From contig VCJN01001978.1 in assembly GCA_006384855.1 (NCBI GenBank), positions 33,369-97,368 on the forward strand: a stretch of DNA of 64,000 nt, written 5' to 3'. This DNA is from Tetraselmis striata (lineage: Eukaryota > Chlorophyta > Chlorodendrophyceae > Chlorodendrales > Chlorodendraceae). Both the position numbers and the translations under genes were made by a program. Positions 3,151 to 39,438 of the stretch are shown here, one piece after another. Below the pieces are notes generated by a model, which was not told the origin of the DNA, did no database searches, and saw only the letters and a program-made list of their open reading frames with translations. Position 1 is the stretch's first letter. The number at the start of each line of letters is the position of its first letter.

Positions 3151-3346
3151 TGTCTTATAGCCCTGGTGCAGGGCACGGGCGTGGGCCCCTGACGAGGGGC
3201 AGCCGAGTGGGAGGGGCAGGAGGATGCGGTGAGGTTAAAGGAAGTGTGTGGCGCCCGCAGCGCCCGCGCCGCCATGTAGCGGCGCGCGCGCCTGGCGGGC
3301 GCCCAGGATACTGCTGTCGCTGCGCTAGTACTACTGTACTATAACA
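3151..3346 (-). repeat. 3' LTR of the Copia-type element
   Basis: A 196 bp LTR with TG/CA termini that ends at 3346 on the plus strand. The matching copy at 4624-4781 starts with the same CTTATAGCCCTGGTGCAGGG block. The retained ~32 bp that the other LTR lacks shows this is the fuller copy. Confidence 0.8.
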
Positions 3347-9581: not shown

Positions 9582-11165
9582 GCTGTGCCGGGGTGCAGGG
9601 GGGGTGGGGGGTGGGGAGGCGGGGGATGCCCTTTGGAGGGCGCTTCCGGTTCCCATAGACGGTGCAGTGGCTCACTGCATGAATGCAACGACACGGCATG
9701 AGGGAATGGAACACAAACTTGCGCTTGGGGCGGGGTTGCACAGGCTGGCTTTGGCTCCATTCATGCCATGCATACACTTACTTTTTGGGAGTGATGCCCC
9801 TGGAATGCCTGTGAAATCACTTCGCCGACATGTTATCCACAAGGTGACATCCGATCATTGTGATACGCTTTCACATTCAACAACGTGCACGTGGTGTGTC
9901 ATCACTTGTGGACATACTCGGCCAAAGATATAGCAACCGTGTGAAAAGATTGAGCCCAGTATTGTTCAATTAGAGAAGTAAATCTTGCTTGCCACTTGGT
10001 GTGATGATTTGGAAGCCTTTGTGGGCGGGGCAACAGTCTCACAGCCAAGGGCATCGCTCGGACAACATGCTAGCCTGCCAGCTCACTCGGGCAAGTGTTG
10101 TTTGAATAGGACCACACTCCAAGCAACGGCGCATGACATGCGCTGCGCACAGTCCTGCTGGGCAGAAGGGTGCATCGTGCAACATGATGCTGCAGCGATT
10201 CCAAGTTTCTGCATCATCCGCTACTTTACACACAACACACAAGCACACACACACAGAGAAACAGACACACACACTCGCGCGCGCGAAAGCGCTACTGCGC
10301 CCCCACTGCCTGGCCCCTGTAGAGGTCATGCTCAGGCTCCGTAAATCTGTGGCGCAAATGCTGCCCGCCTCTCCTCATATAAGTCGCACAGGCCATCAGT
10401 TCGTTTTTCCATCGAAACATACGGCTATGCTTTGTGTGCGCCTTGTCTATTTTTGCAGCCACCGACGAGCCCTGTGGTCGTCTGGGTCACAGTAGCTAGC
10501 GCCACGCGAGGAGCTACTAGAGCTCTGCTGCACTTTGCTTGCTCACTTCAACAAGCGAGATGGATGTTATGTGCTGCTTATTGCTTGTCGTCATGGAACG
10601 AGTTGTTGGGCGCACACTATCATTCATTCCCAAGCCCCAATGGAATCATGCAACGATGCTGTTATGTACATCCTGTAAGTTCACTCAGGAAATTTGATAA
10701 ATATTCATTGTATTTAGCACATGTAACCGCGGTACTATATTTAGTACGACGACTGTCACCTTCGCGTAGAAGATTTTTTCATTCCCGTTTTGCGCAATTC
10801 TAAGTGTTACTTTTGCTCATATTGACTGTATCGGAGCTGTCGCGCCTTCACAGGGCGGGCCTTAGCTGTGGTGCTGCGAAATAAGCTGGTTCTGCCTAGT
10901 TAATGAAGACCATCCTAGCTAGCAGCAGACCATCCTAGAGACGCTAGCAGCAGTCACCCTGTTCCGGGGCGGGAAGAAAACGATGGCGACTGCATATCTT
11001 GTCACAGATAGAGCGGTGGAACACAACTATCGTCTGACATGTAGTTTACATCCACATTTCTACAATGTAGCTAATATACCAAAAAACAACCTAAAATTGT
11101 ATTGTACATATCTATATTATCGCCGTGGTGCCGTAGTAGTGTCCCTGGCTGCTGGCACCAGCGGT
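9582..11165. other. Intergenic, no supported gene
   Basis: It contains the 3' flank of the TPR gene, a CA-rich microsatellite at about 10230-10275, and AT-richer DNA from about 10670. TGTAA, the usual green-algal poly(A) signal, appears at about 10674 and 10722, far from the stop codon. No coding pattern was recognised. Confidence 0.5.
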
Positions 11166-11355
11166 ATGATCTAAACTAGTTTATGGGGTTTCCTCCCTTG
11201 GGACCTAACCGCTTTTCAGCTACAAGTGCTGTTCAGTGGTACGGGAACTAGGCACCTGTCGTTGCGCCCTTTTTGGGTGCAGCACGAGTAGACATAAAAG
11301 CAGCCATAACAACTGAGCCTGCCATCTTCCAGTTTTCGCTGCGTTCCACGCAGCG
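11166..11355 (+). repeat. Left terminal repeat A1 of the YR element
   Basis: It begins ATGATCTAAACTAGTTTATG and ends GTTCCACGCAGCG. It differs from A2 (14116-14303) at scattered positions only, including a 3-base indel after CCTCCCTTG. Confidence 0.8.
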
Positions 11356-11918
11356 ATGTTAAAACTGTCTCGTAACCTGTTGCGAGCAAGGTCACCCCAG
11401 CCAGGTTGTTCAAGACCACCCCCGGCTCAACTCCCGTGTGTGATATTCTCATCCGTACGCCCGTGCGTTACCATGCCAGATGGAGAAGAACCCGTCGTTG
11501 AGCCGACGCTCGAGTCGCTACACGCAGACGTGAAGGGCTAGTCTACATTCTTGCGAGAGCTTGCTACTGCGATGGCCCAACTGACGGCTCGTGAGCGCGT
11601 TGTTGATGGAGAAGGAGCATATGTATGGTTCCGGTTCCGGGCAGCGCATCGCGGGACAGCCGACATGCAGCGGGGGAGCCGCAGAGCGCCGCGACTTGCT
11701 AGAGCTAGCCCAGAGCGGCCATGTCGGAGCAAAATCCGTGAGATAAAATTGACGAGGATGACTATACCTCGCGGTGCCAGAACTACTGCAAAGAGCAGAG
11801 TCTGGTTACGAGGCCGGTCAGGCGGGTGCCTGGGCTCTTCCCCCCGAGCACCGACCTGACGAACGAGTACCTCAAGCAGGATGACCGGCGTCTGCCGGCC
11901 TAGGAGGAGTATCTATGG

Positions 11919-12347
11919 ATGTCGTGTTTCGGCGCCCACATGGCCGCACTTTTCGTAGCTCTCGACGAGCTGCTGCCTTACGTCCCTGCTGCAAATCAGG
12001 ACTTCACCCCCTACCTCGCGAGAGCTCGGAACCATGCCGAAGCCATCGACAAGGCGTTTCGCTTTCGTTTGGCCTTCCTCTGGAGGCTTATTGAGGTTAA
12101 GCGTGTGCACGGTGACCAAGGTGTTCTGGACGTGCTGCGAGCTCAGCACTTTCAGCCTGCTTCTGAGCATCTGGGTTCCGCGATTTTTGGGGACCTCATG
12201 AGGGACTACGAGCGTAGCGTCTTCGAGGTGACTGTGGCCAGCAACGCCAAAGCATGCAACCGCCACTGCTCGGGTGGCGGCAACAGCTGCAGGTCGCGGA
12301 CGTGGACGAGGACGTGGCGGTGGACGCGGGCGTGGCCGCGAAGGTGA
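11919..12347 (+). CDS. Gag-like ORF of the YR element
   Basis: A 142-residue frame that is open upstream to 11913. Residues ~1-105 are helix-prone (AALFVALDELLPYVPAANQD, then AFRFRLAFLWRLIEVKRVHG). The end is Arg/Trp-rich and basic after a few Cys/His. A first ORF in a YR retroelement usually encodes the capsid-like protein, and a helical core with a basic tail fits, but no database-level motif such as a CCHC knuckle is clear. Short upstream frames at 11473-11541 and 11551-11859 may belong to the same broken gene. Confidence 0.4.
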   Translation: MSCFGAHMAALFVALDELLPYVPAANQDFTPYLARARNHAEAIDKAFRFRLAFLWRLIEVKRVHGDQGVLDVLRAQHFQPASEHLGSAIFGDLMRDYERSVFEVTVASNAKACNRHCSGGGNSCRSRTWTRTWRWTRAWPRR

Positions 12348-12988
12348 GCAAGAGTGACGGTGTGGGGCACCTTTCGTCGGAGCTGCTGGAGCCTTGCGAG
12401 GCCACCTTTCGGTGATCGCCGCAAAACGCACCCTTGCAGCTCAACGACGGGATGAGGGCCCTGTGTCTGGACCTGAACCCCCCCACCTTGCAGACTTCAT
12501 TTAGACCTTCCTCGGTGTGGCGCTTCTTACAGCTACAACCGAGTGCGGCTCAACCATCCGCACACTTGCACATGGCGGCTCAACCAACCGCCTCCCGTAC
12601 CATTCCATCACTGCGTCCGCCGATTGTTAAATTGCGTGTCACAACTGGTTCGCAACGACCAAGCTTCGCGCGTGTACATTACGCGCGTGACAGGCGCTAC
12701 GAGCGCGAAGTAAGGGCGCGCGGGGCGGCCCTCCTACCTTAACCTAGCCCCGCAAACCCGTACTGGTGCTACTGCAAACCCATCCAGCAATTACGGCCAG
12801 CCGCCGGGAATCTAACCGTTGCTGCCGAGTATTCTGCAAACAGTAGTCGCACCTCTGGAACTCTGTCGGTAAAACGACGCACTTACGTAATTGACGAGCC
12901 CGAAGCTGTCGCTCCTTGGGTTGCTTCACTGCGATCTCGACTGCATGATGCTTTCGGCTCAGACGAGCTAGGACAACGGACACTCGAC

Positions 12989-14034
12989 ATGCTCTCCAGC
13001 TCCCTCACCGCTCAGACACTCAAGAGCTACGCCGGCAGACTATCTCGGTTCTTGGAGTTCTGCCACGACTCCGAGAACATCAGCCCGCTGGAGGCGACCA
13101 CTGCTACTGTCCTCCGGTACGTCGCCTGGATTGGTAAGCGAGGGCACATTGGAGCTAAGTCACTGCAACCCTACCTGTCTGCAATCAACACGTTCTTCGA
13201 ACTGCACAACCTCAACACAATCGCCAAGGACGGCCTACACCTCACTTCGGCAAGGCGTGGGCTGATGCTGCGGCAGCGCCGTCTGGAAGTCGCCCCTTTG
13301 CGAGTTCCTCTGTCTGCTGATGCATGCGCATGTAGCCTACCGCTTCGTCACAAATGCCGAGCTGATTGTGTCTGCTCCCACCCCAGAGTACCAACACGAC
13401 TTCCGAGCCCTCGTGGCCTCGGTTGTCAACTTCATGTTCTTTGCTAAAGGACTTACTGGCGTCTCCTGCCGAGTGCGGGATGTGCATGTCGACGATTACA
13501 ACATTACCCTGCAGGTGTACCGCGAGAAAGGCCGCGCTGGCCGACGGGGACCCGATGACCTGCGCGTACTTCTCCTTCCGGCGCCAGAGCACCCCCGAGT
13601 TGCACGTCTCCTACACCACTTCATCGACACGATACAGTCTGTCCCCCCTGGTTACTATTGCCTTGGCTGAAACAAACTTCTGGGCGGTCACCCCGAGCGA
13701 GCAGTCACAACCTTGGACTGCCGCTACAATGTCGGACTGGCTGTCTACAACCGTCCGTCTTGTCGGTGCTGCCCCTCCCGCCGGCACTTCTTGGACCTCA
13801 CACAGCCTTCGCAAGGGAGCAGCATCTGCGGCCAACGCCATCGGAGTACCACTGTCCCACATTCGCTACCAAGGCGGCTGGGCCACTAACTCCGACGTCG
13901 TTCTGGACTACATCGACCCCAACGTTCTTCCTTCACCTGGCGCATGGTTCTTCTTTGGCCACATCGCCCCCCTCCGCTACTTCCAAGTCCAACATGACTC
14001 CGCACCGGTGGCCTTCCCGGTGCCTCCTTCATGA
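12989..14034 (+). pseudogene. Tyrosine recombinase of the YR element (two frameshifts)
   Basis: Three overlapping frames together describe one recombinase. Frame 12989-13250 carries the SAM-like core-binding domain (TLKSYAGRLSRFLEFC, then GHIGAKSLQPYLSAINTFF). Frame 13320-13670 carries the start of the catalytic domain. Frame ~13650-14034 carries the C-terminal part with HSLRKGAASAANAIGVP (H at 13801, R at 13810), a GGWA turn and the nucleophile Tyr in LDYIDP (TAC 13909-13911). The box-I arginine is not obvious: the matching stretch reads FFAKGLTG. Two frame changes, near 13250-13320 and 13650, mean it is inactive unless they are sequence errors. The enzyme would insert the circular cDNA of the element. 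Confidence 0.75.
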
Positions 14035-14092
14035 CCTGGCGCTACCCCTTTTCCGTCAATCCACCTACCGCTCTCTCCGTTCGCTCATAACT

Positions 14093-14118
14093 GGCAAAAC
14101 CAGACTCAACTTGAAATG
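14093..14118 (+). repeat. Repeat B1 of the YR element
   Basis: A 26 bp sequence identical to 14397-14422. Its last bases (ATG) overlap the first bases of A2. Confidence 0.85.
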
Positions 14119-14303
14119 ATCTAAACTAGTTTATGGGGTTTCCTCCCTTGACCTAACCGTTTTTCAGCTACAAGTGCTGCTCAGTGGTACGGGAGCTAGG
14201 CACATGTCGTTGCGCCCTTTTTGGGTGCAGCACGAGTAGACATAAACGCAGCCATAACAGCTGAGCCTGCCATCTTCCAGTTTTCGCTGCGTTCCACGCA
14301 GCG
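14116..14303 (+). repeat. Internal repeat A2 of the YR element
   Basis: A near-identical copy of A1 that starts exactly where B1 ends. Confidence 0.8.
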
Positions 14304-14396
14304 CCCCCCCTGACTCCGTTTTCCCTCCACGCTTTCGCTAAACCATCCTGCCAATTTCGGCTCTTGACCGTGTAAAACAGCATGCGCGACCTTTTT

Positions 14397-14422
14397 GGCA
14401 AAACCAGACTCAACTTGAAATG
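14397..14422 (+). repeat. Right terminal repeat B2 of the YR element
   Basis: An identical copy of B1. Element sequence ends at ATG, followed by unrelated TGCGATGTCG. Confidence 0.8.
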
Positions 14423-14579
14423 TGCGATGTCGAGTGCTTTTGATCGTTTGCTTTATGGGACGACATATATAGCGACCACTTTTCAGAGGTATTTTATTAC
14501 TTTTCAGAGCTGGTACCCGGTATATCAGGTACAATTAAAATACCTTAATCTCACCGGGCTTACGCGCGAGATGTCATAA

Positions 14580-15503
14580 GGCTGCATTTATATTTCATTT
14601 TCGGCCGTAACCGCAATAATCGTACGGGTACCCGGTACCAATTTACGGTTGCGGCTCGCGAAAAGTCGTAAACGCTTAACACGGAGTTGTATTATTGAGC
14701 CGTAACCGTAAACTGGCGGATTTGCGGCTCGAGGATATGCGGCTGGCCTCTCTGGTCGCAAATATCGCAATATTTACGACCGCCCTAAATATGGCTCACT
14801 GAGCCGTAAATCGAAGTAATACTTTACGCATAATATACATGTTCAGCGCAATGTGTAGGCCGGCCGCAAAGGCCAATCAAAGGGCCGTAGAGGCCAGGCG
14901 GCGCCCTGCTCGCTGCTCGGCCCGGCCCCAGCCCGAGCGCCAGGGCGTGCTGATGCTGGGCCCGTTTCAACGTTTGAACTACCAGGATTGAGGGGGTGCG
15001 GTCAAACGACACTGAACTGGCGCTCATTTGCCAGTCGCCCGCCCATATCGTGCAGTGTTGGGTGCTCATCAGGCTATCTACAACACTCCCAAGCGACTGC
15101 TCGCGATGGCCACCAATCCCCCCCCTCGCCCGCGCCGCCGCGGCCGCAAGCCCCGCTTCCATGCGCTACGGGCATGGATGACGACGACTTCTGGGCGGAC
15201 GAGGAGAACGAAGAGCATGTTGGGCCTGGAGGTTGGTTGGCTGACCGCGCCGTGCGGGGTATCGTAACAACCAGAGGACAGCGATCAGGAGGATCATAGA
15301 GGATGACGAGGACGGCGGCAACGAGGACGAAGGGGATGAGGACGAGGGCGAGGGCGACGAGGAAAATAACGGCGGATACTTAGATGTCACATTTCACGGT
15401 GCCGGCTGCACCGTAAACATGCCGAATTTGCGGTTCCTACGAGCATTTTAGTACCCGTACGAATATTTGCGACTACGGTTACGGCCGAAGATGAAATGCA
15501 GCC
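14580..15503. mobile_element. DNA element with ~55 bp terminal inverted repeats
   Basis: The left end (GGCTGCATTTATATTTCATT, continuing through CGGCCGTAACCG and CGTACGGGTAC) is matched in inverse by the right end at about 15450-15503, which reads GTACCCGTACG...CGGTTACGGCCG...AAATGCAGCC. The arms differ by a few small indels. I could not define a target-site duplication with confidence. It sits ~160 bp from the YR element. The ~925 bp length and one doubtful internal ORF suggest a non-autonomous copy. Confidence 0.65.
15106..15450 (+). CDS. Possible acidic ORF fragments inside the TIR element
   Basis: A basic stretch (PPRPRRRGRKPRFHALRA, from ATG 15106) is followed in another frame by DDDDFWADEENEEHVG, and then by a long Asp/Glu/Gly run up to about 15380 and GYLDVTFHGAGCTVNMPNL. 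No single frame joins them without splicing or frameshift. The basic-then-acidic pattern may be a decayed transposase part; nothing identifies a family. Confidence 0.2.
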
Positions 15504-37795: not shown

Positions 37796-38880
37796 ACCAC
37801 AGTGGGGAAGAGCAAGCCAAACAGAAGCGCGGCGGCGCGGGTAGAAAGCGTAGCCGGGTCGATGTATTCGTTGAATACCGCAAAATTGCGAGCCTAATCG
37901 CCCCCTCGGCGGTTTTTGTTTAGGGGTACGCACGCTGCGTTTGCGCCACACGCCGCGCCCTTTCGTACGGAGTGAAAGGTCCACACGAAACCTTCTCCGG
38001 GGGGGGGGGGGGGGGGGGGTGAAGCTCGATTGATGCGGCCGATGGCCCGCTTGAGCCAGTCGCCGAGGGTGGAGGCGTTCCACGTAAGGGGTTGGTAGCC
38101 CCTCGCCGGGGAGCACCCAGAAGTCAAGTTGCTTGGCGGAGGCGGGAGCCGCCCGGAACACCGCGTCGTCGCGGCAGGTGATGAAGCTGGCTGCGTAGCA
38201 GGGTTGTTCAAGTGCTGGGCACGGCGCGGTGACAAGGATTTGAAGTAGGGGCTTGAACCCGTATCGACGACGACGCATGCGATGTCCCCACTTCTTGCGG
38301 TTGACGAAAATGGTAGACGGTTGACGAAATGGAAAATCGTTGAAGGCCATGTCGCGGAGTCGGCAGGAGACGTTGGACTCACCACGGGAGTAGAACTAGA
38401 TAAACGTCGAGCACATCGCCGCGCCGCCGCGAAGGTTGTTGCTGTAGTCGGTGGTGGTTGTGGGAAGGGTAGCAACATGGTCGTCGAGGATGACGGTGAT
38501 GACGTCGCAAGGCAGAGGGGCGCGCCGAAGTTTCTCGCTCGTTTCTCGCTCGTTTCTCGTCTTGAGGTGGCAGATTTGAAGCGCGCATGTCGTCGATGGT
38601 TGGGGCGGTGGCCGGGGCGTCATCCCGACCGGTGTGACGCAGGAAGGTAGTCTCAATGGGCGAGATGTAGAGAGCCAGTGCCGATGGTGCCGCACTCTGC
38701 AATCCAAACAAGTTAGCGGACGCACGTAAACTCAGTGCAGCAGTCTACGGGGGAGATGCCTTCCTCGTCGGTGCAGAACTCGGCAAAGAGGCGAATCTTG
38801 GCTTCGTATTTCGAGTAAGTGATGGCCGTGAGCGATGTAGTCAGGAGGTCGAGCACCTAGGCGCCCCAATTGTCTGTGCC
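37796..38880 (-). pseudogene. Degenerate tyrosine recombinase of a YR retroelement
   Basis: The minus strand encodes, in order, pieces that align with the recombinase at 12989-14034: an SAM-like core (TSLTAITYSKYEAKIRLFAE, then DEEGISPVD) near 38860-38740; CGTIGTGSLYISPIETTFL near 38690; and a catalytic C-terminal part with WTFHSVRKGAACGANA (His at 37974, Arg at 37965) and NEYIDP (Tyr TAC 37866-37864). An in-frame TAG at 37896-37894 separates HxxR from the tyrosine. A poly-G run at 38000-38019 and frame changes add to the damage. No split repeats were found around it. Confidence 0.6.
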
Positions 38881-39438
38881 GTACATGGCTTCGATGCTGC
38901 CTCGCAAGAGCCATCGGTCCAGAGCTCATATATATATAGCAGTTTCAGCAAAACCCCACCGTTCCGTTGATATTGAGCATTTCGCGCGTGAGGTCCCTAT
39001 CTTTGCTACCCAAACTTAGTATGCAGTATATATATAATTACATGAGCTAGCAGCAGAAGGCGATATCGGAAATCACCAAAATAAAAGGCATGCAGTCACA
39101 CGTACATAGACGACATATATTGTAAACAGCATAATATTTCACACGTCGTCTATATCTCTACATATCTGTGCCGTCACACATGTGTCCGTCATTGCTTGTG
39201 GCTTCGTTATCGTGGTCATTCCGCGATATAAATAATCAGTACTTCACGGCTGTATTGGAGATCGCGCGCCGCTGTTTTGCGATCCGGCCGCCGGGCCGGC
39301 GCCGCGCCGCCGCACTCGGCGCCACGGGCAGCGCGATATGTAAGCGCCGCATCCCAAGTCGTAAGCCCCCTCCCTCACCACCCGCGGTGCCGCCAGCCCT
39401 GACAGACCCGTCCCTCCCGGCCACCCGGACACGTCAAG
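38881..39438. other. Upstream region of the eL42 gene
   Basis: AT-rich with TATATATA near 38929 and 39030, then GC-rich from 39260. The eL42 leader must lie in the last ~150 bp; the exact start is not visible. Confidence 0.4.

Follow-up and report, generated by a model that had tools for sequence, protein, structure and literature searches.

The window analysed here, a stretch of 64,000 nucleotides from contig VCJN01001978.1 of the green alga Tetraselmis striata, carries at 11166-14422 a compact element with split direct repeats and two open reading frames (ORFs). The first, ORF1, probably encodes a Gag-like protein, and the second, ORF2, a predicted tyrosine recombinase (YR); profile searches of the element detected no reverse transcriptase (RT). 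The copy in the window is decayed and belongs to an established RT-less family. Its features are the following:

11166-11355, + strand: A1, the left split direct repeat, from repeat comparison; the element proper starts at TG, 11167
11292-11300, + strand: TATA-like ACATAAAAG in A1, a putative promoter
11337-11355, + strand: hairpin at the end of A, near the expected 5' end of the RNA (putative start)
11473-12357, + strand: ORF1, Gag-like by position and RG-rich tail; broken in the window copy
12358-12571, + strand: linker, after the TGACGG of the gag end; nucleotides conserved, frame not (variable C run)
12572-14034, + strand: ORF2, predicted tyrosine recombinase with a SAM-like N-domain and HxxR...GGW...Y; start codon our choice; broken in the window copy
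14092-14118, + strand: B1, from repeat comparison
14116-14303, + strand: A2, overlapping B1 at the ATG junction, from repeat comparison
14371-14375, + strand: TGTAA, candidate poly(A) signal directly 5' of B2
14396-14422, + strand: B2, the right split direct repeat; the element proper ends at A, 14420

Ends and target sites

A1 and A2 share 35 identical nucleotides and a further 154 nt at 96% identity, and B1 and B2 are identical 27-mers; repeat comparison thus put A1, B1/A2 and B2 at the positions given in the first-pass annotation. The element proper, TG...A, runs from about 11167 to 14420. When compared with the genome (224 Mb, 2,903 contigs), these boundaries proved to be shared by paralogues, with 31 of the 41 listed matches, the window's own included, spanning query base 1-3 to 3249-3257 of 3257. 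A 26-mer from B had 402 matches with at most two mismatches, and the reversed pattern had none. In one subfamily B has an additional T, and because the 26-mer can hardly match it, the B count underestimates the number of copies. The window copy itself is decayed, its gag and recombinase matches each being split into several pieces and frames.

The first-pass annotation had also described an ATG core at all three junctions, which is correct for the window copy but does not hold as a fixed three-base core at the outer ends once other copies are aligned. The internal junction reads ATG in 38 of 44 rows and AATG in the other six. In 28 left ends, ATCTAA is preceded by TG, with T at the first of these positions in 27 and G at the second in 27; the base before TG varies (A in 17, C in 7, T in 3, G in 1); the target preceding TG is mostly G, then T/G/A, then T/A, then A/C. 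Right ends were read in 58 rows, four of which we set aside as internal junctions by our own reading; 52 of the remaining 54 read A followed by T (28) or C (24), a count that includes seven rows shifted by the extra T in B. The insertion rule is that a TG...A element is placed at a loosely specified N^Y target. The window copy fits A^TG and therefore has ATG at both its ends.

Insertion without target duplication, also expected from the outset, was observed at one site, on C2321, whose ten fetched empty copies all read ...GACAAGTTC/CTCTTCTTGCC... (10/10; the slash marks the point of insertion). The filled site reads GTTC[TG...A]CTCTTC against TTC/CTC in the empty one, with neither duplication nor loss of target. 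This site lies in a repeat, and matches to it took all 40 rows scored for a set of six sites; for four other insertion sites, no empty copy was present among 42 rows.

The window copy and a copy on C1297 (L002) occupy the same site, with flanks (10766-11165 and 14423-14922) that are 80-90% similar, and C2187/C2685 and C374/C2099 look like further same-site pairs; such pairs look like duplicated or allelic segments. Just to the right of the element, at 14638-14716, an inverted repeat (90%) has arms of 20 nt separated by 39 nt, and the sequence around it is partly repeated near other copies (L025/L042, L063). On C272 (L052, about 1177-1191), two elements stand head to tail, with ~14 bp from B2 to the next left end.

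A family without a reverse transcriptase

Pfam searches of the window element, in six sense and two antisense frames, returned integrase domains alone (integrase SAM-like and Phage_integrase), in agreement with the absence of RT first reported from the sequence. RT was likewise missing from the Pfam matches to ORFs and frames of the other copies examined (including L037 and L038), and the Dam-type methyltransferase domain PF05869 was matched neither in the window frames nor in the ORFs of other copies scanned. The family is large: a recombinase 26-mer around the catalytic tyrosine had 1,314 matches in the genome and a gag 26-mer 1,292, both at up to two mismatches, with 0 for each reversed control. 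Were all of the ~1,300 motif matches full length, the family would by our estimate account for about 1.9% of the genome at most. Among the matches listed, paralogues of ~3.2 kb are 87-95% identical to the window copy. The pairing of gag with YR drew on 100 listed places for the gag motif, 100 for the YR motif and 83 from a YR protein search, the two YR lists marking slightly different points of the gene. It gave 16 same-strand pairs within 12 kb, 14 of them spaced 1,976-2,096 bp; the remaining two are spaced 1,232 bp and 6,140 bp, the latter joining the YR on C933 to a second gag match on that contig. None of the 16 has an RT-sized gap between gag and its own YR.

Three diverged relatives (C602, C682 and C449; about 70-80% nucleotide identity in aligned parts) were extended. 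C602 and C682 each hold A1, gag and YR within one element, of about 3.6 kb and 2.6 kb respectively, with neither an RT-sized gap nor a match to the RT of L069, an RT-bearing element described below. The stretch of C449 covered, too short upstream to show gag, contains the linker and a YR that is interrupted. Because the motif counts are high and the two older relatives are RT-less too, we regard the RT-less form as established rather than as a recent deletion. The first-pass annotation had left two possibilities. Deletion of RT from the window copy is not supported, given paralogues of the same RT-less 3.2-kb form and a gag/YR spacing without an RT-sized gap, whereas an established compact element with its own recombinase is supported by the recurrence of this form, the similar spacing of most pairs and the mostly synonymous variants shared in the ORFs.

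ORF2 variants were scored in 42 copies, the window copy included, and counted as independent. Those private to one copy comprised 496 nonsynonymous (N), 226 synonymous (S) and 24 stop changes (N/S 2.19; 250/231/265 at the three codon positions). Variants present in exactly two copies numbered 98 N, 75 S and 5 stop, and those in at least three copies 97 N, 191 S and 2 stop (N/S 0.51; 68/43/179). The shift from private variants to those in three or more copies (odds ratio 4.32, p = 3e-24) ran the opposite way when ORF2 was read in the two other frames (odds ratios 0.70 and 0.47). ORF1, scored in 28 copies, had 239 N and 120 S among private variants (N/S 1.99), 50 N and 44 S in exactly two copies, and 20 N and 64 S in at least three (N/S 0.31). 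Comparison of the 31 copies of the main group with the 7 of the group at 87-90% identity, four intermediate copies being left out, gave near-fixed ORF2 differences of 41 S and 14 N, against an N/S of 2.63 for all possible changes. We conclude that copies decay neutrally after insertion, while the spreading lineage is under purifying selection in both ORFs. Full-length RT-less copies occur on both sides of the subfamily split, those on the 87-90% side, as judged from overall identity, being C2091, C742 and C2417. Unless RT was lost twice, selection therefore acted on elements that already had no RT; among the seven YR sequences of the 87-90% group, the whole element is known for one (L020, C2091).

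ORF2 lies on the same strand as gag. Of its 83 best matches in the genome, 56 contain no stop, a share that describes the best-scoring copies and not the whole family. The ORF2 of one copy (L007; 516 amino acids from stop to stop) matched Phage_int_SAM_1 at 4.1e-6 (27.4 bits, cut-off 22.3), and the ORF2 C-terminus aligned to Cre over HxxR, GGW and the tyrosine; by our own reading the upstream arginine also aligns. These matches identify ORF2 as a tyrosine recombinase. A second decayed and broken recombinase, with 41-46% amino-acid identity to ORF2, is present on the minus strand at 37804-38907 and is a putative diverged sister lineage of the element's YR; the window has no gag match outside the element. 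Searches of viral contigs with two peptide patterns per protein confirmed no relatives of YR or gag.

In open copies ORF1 has about 291 codons, from MPDGEE to an RG-rich tail, and probably encodes a Gag-like, capsid-like protein. TGACGG stands at the gag end in 27 of 28 copies. The C run of the linker, at about 12478-12484, differs in length among copies, and element bases 1183-1500 show net indels of -10 to +15 nt (28 copies) in a stretch otherwise conserved between subfamilies. The YR frames are exactly 553 codons in 35 of the 83 best matches, and on L004, by arithmetic, they reach back to the gag stop. We do not claim stop-codon read-through from gag to YR, given the variable length of the C run and the little coding bias of the linker; ORF2 may be expressed by splicing (AAG/GTGAGC ... 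TTGCAG) or by separate initiation. Folding of 201 nt around the gag end, only some 25 nt of which belong to the linker, gave nothing unusual (z -0.10).

Proposed route of replication and putative source of reverse transcriptase

An exact copy of the TATA-like AGACATAAAA is present in 63 of 72 A units (the A2 of the window copy has AGACATAAAC instead). Downstream of the box, folding predicts a stem of 5 bp or more in 63 of the 72 units, in 62 of them, by our reading, at the same place. Old relatives retain most of the TATA-like box, and some retain the stem via paired changes. TGTAA, a poly(A) signal in green algae and a candidate one here, stands 5' of B2 in 37 of 42 recognised tails. If these motifs set the ends of the RNA, the parts absent from it would be those that are present in B1-A2. 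From one subfamily to the other, identity is 96-98.5% in the non-coding A, linker and tail, compared with 89-91% for gag and YR. Among the 14 A-repeat variants found in exactly two sequences (17 copies), six were common to the A1 and A2 of one copy, where chance predicts 1 in 33 (p = 2e-6); such sharing of private variants within copies would fit RNA-templated renewal. On this evidence from sequence, an RNA step is favoured.

In the cycle that we propose, the RNA would begin within A1, downstream of the TATA-like box, and finish between TGTAA and B2, so that the 5' part of A1 and the whole of B2 would be missing from it. The internal B1-A2 segment holds both missing parts side by side and could template the closure of a putative complementary DNA (cDNA) circle, with the junction ...GAAA/TGATCT... 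The element's own recombinase would then join this circle, between A and TG, to an N^Y target without duplication. We infer that RT would be supplied in trans by another element, the most plausible donor being a PAT-type element of the same genome that bears RT, RNase H and Dam.

PAT-type elements are present in the genome as possible RT donors. RVT_1 as a general query gave no partner among 150 scored matches (presumed Gypsy-type), and because these did not serve to find one, Dam (PF05869) was chosen as the PAT marker; it was found at 122 places when 150 of the 777 candidates were scored. One PAT-type element, L069 (C793:8500-16344), has RVT_1 (8.5e-16), RNase H and Dam domains, and by our reading its downstream ORF looks like a recombinase. 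The direct repeats of L069 (255, 148 and 66 nt) do not fit a simple A1-B1-A2-B2 order in the stretch fetched.

We consider it probable that the elements form an RT-less split-direct-repeat YR retroelement family that provides a Gag-like protein and a YR in cis and takes its RT from another element. Several points weigh against this interpretation. A single insertion site (C2321) was compared successfully with empty copies. The Phage_integrase match of the L007 ORF2 (3e-4, 21.0 bits) is below the cut-off of 27.1, and ORF1 had no Pfam match over the cut-off in the several copies scanned, so the label Gag-like derives from its position and composition. The test of sharing between A1 and A2 comprises 14 variants from 17 copies, A1 is nearest its own A2 by distance in 6 of the 17, and gene conversion could also homogenise the two repeats. 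At element bases 190-300, the non-coding leader has diverged to a similar degree as the coding parts (91%), which is at odds with a general conservation of non-coding sequence. On the side of the donor, the downstream ORF of L069 has no Pfam match, its similarity to the element's YR is weak (40 columns, hhalign probability 3%, E 0.014), and L069 and the element share no significant DNA similarity; searches that scored part of the candidates found no RT-bearing element with the element's termini or YR.

Alternatively, the elements could be DNA transposons, in which the YR excises and reinserts a circle as in Cryptons, copies multiply by DNA replication and the split repeats are recombination sites, with no RNA involved. 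The 3.2-kb paralogues, the same layout in two old relatives, the lack of an RT domain in the scanned frames and the strong selection on YR agree with such a route, and exact joining without duplication needs no RNA. However, we consider it unlikely in view of the private variants common to A1 and A2 within copies and of a TATA-like box and TGTAA placed so that an RNA would lack the B1-A2 content. The selected Gag-like ORF would have no obvious use, B1-A2 would be a second cutting site inside the element, and Cryptons, in the accessible part of PMC3212892, are without long direct repeats.

In a two-part system, a rare or diverged sister with the same termini or YR would carry the RT, help the present element and have been missed. 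The searches score and list part of the candidates. With about 1,300 copies, two B repeats in each would give far more than the 402 B matches, which means that termini vary. The window also contains a decayed YR relative (37.8-38.9 kb; 41-46% identity), and two of the 183 listed YR places (C1455 and C132) are 6.4 and 8.0 kb from a Dam place, which we read in both cases as a mere neighbour of the YR. Yet the gag motif is almost as frequent as the YR motif (1,292 vs 1,314 matches), 14 of the 16 listed same-strand gag/YR pairs are about 2.0-2.1 kb apart, and none of 130 listed element places is within 31 kb of any of the 122 Dam places, which makes such a sister quite unlikely. It is also decidedly unlikely that the element is a self-sufficient transposon, intermediate between Crypton and DIRS, that uses its split repeats for DNA-circle recombination with its own YR and without reverse transcription, the Gag-like protein packaging or binding the circle. 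That a PAT element recently lost its interior and was passively spread with its ORFs as relics is very improbable, for although the genome does contain PAT-type elements that carry RT, RNase H and Dam, the searches revealed no sister with an RT, shared variants of both ORFs bear the mark of purifying selection (in YR also between RT-less subfamilies), and two old relatives (roughly 70-80% identity) have gag beside YR and no RT.

Relation to known elements

Elements of the PAT-like group insert without target duplication. The probable RT-less retroelement family resembles them in this respect (10/10 empty copies of one site), in its tyrosine recombinase (SAM-like domain over the cut-off, Phage_integrase below) and in split direct repeats ordered A1...B1-A2...B2 as in PAT-like and Toc elements of the DIRS order (44 internal junctions here). 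It differs in its size of 3.2 kb, in being without RT, RNase H and methyltransferase, and in a YR that is weakly similar to the YR-like ORF of L069, the one PAT-type element examined. PAT-like elements are present in all green algae curated in the accessible part of PMC8226300. According to the portion of PMC4157794 available, PAT-like and Toc elements have split direct repeats of this order, and Toc3 has a YR that is not inverted, as here. Toc3 also has an RT, which our element lacks. The first-pass annotation had likened the layout to PAT and Kangaroo together; Kangaroo of Volvox shares the split direct repeats of an algal YR element, but the comparison fails in that Kangaroo has an inverted YR (same portion of PMC4157794) and an RT, whereas here there is no RT and YR runs the same way as gag. 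Because neither RT nor methyltransferase was found, we do not file the element under PAT; PAT-type at its ends, it is most aptly described as an RT-less YR retroelement family with its own recombinase and Gag-like protein.

TOC1 of Chlamydomonas is a non-autonomous relative of YR retroelements. SIRE of Trypanosoma cruzi is another, corresponding in the accessible text of PMC6681497 to a region with A2 and B2 of VIPER. SIRE is about 0.4 kb long, whereas the present family keeps two ORFs under selection. Cryptons likewise have a YR without RT, and are not known to carry a Gag-like ORF. Their direct repeats are short (4 or 6 bp), with neither terminal inverted repeats nor long direct repeats described in the part of PMC3212892 consulted; our element, in contrast, has split direct repeats of 190 nt and 27 nt and no duplication at the empty site. 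Literature searched at the level of titles and the starts of abstracts, a scope with most subscription papers and Repbase outside it, contained no RT-less gag and YR family under selection.

Non-autonomous retroelements usually retain cis signals alone, or lose whichever proteins can be borrowed. In this family, selection has kept the YR and the Gag-like protein without an RT, which suggests that these two proteins have to fit the ends or the RNA of the element itself, whereas an RT can be shared. A small two-gene element with a separate source of RT would make the unresolved DIRS/PAT replication model testable.

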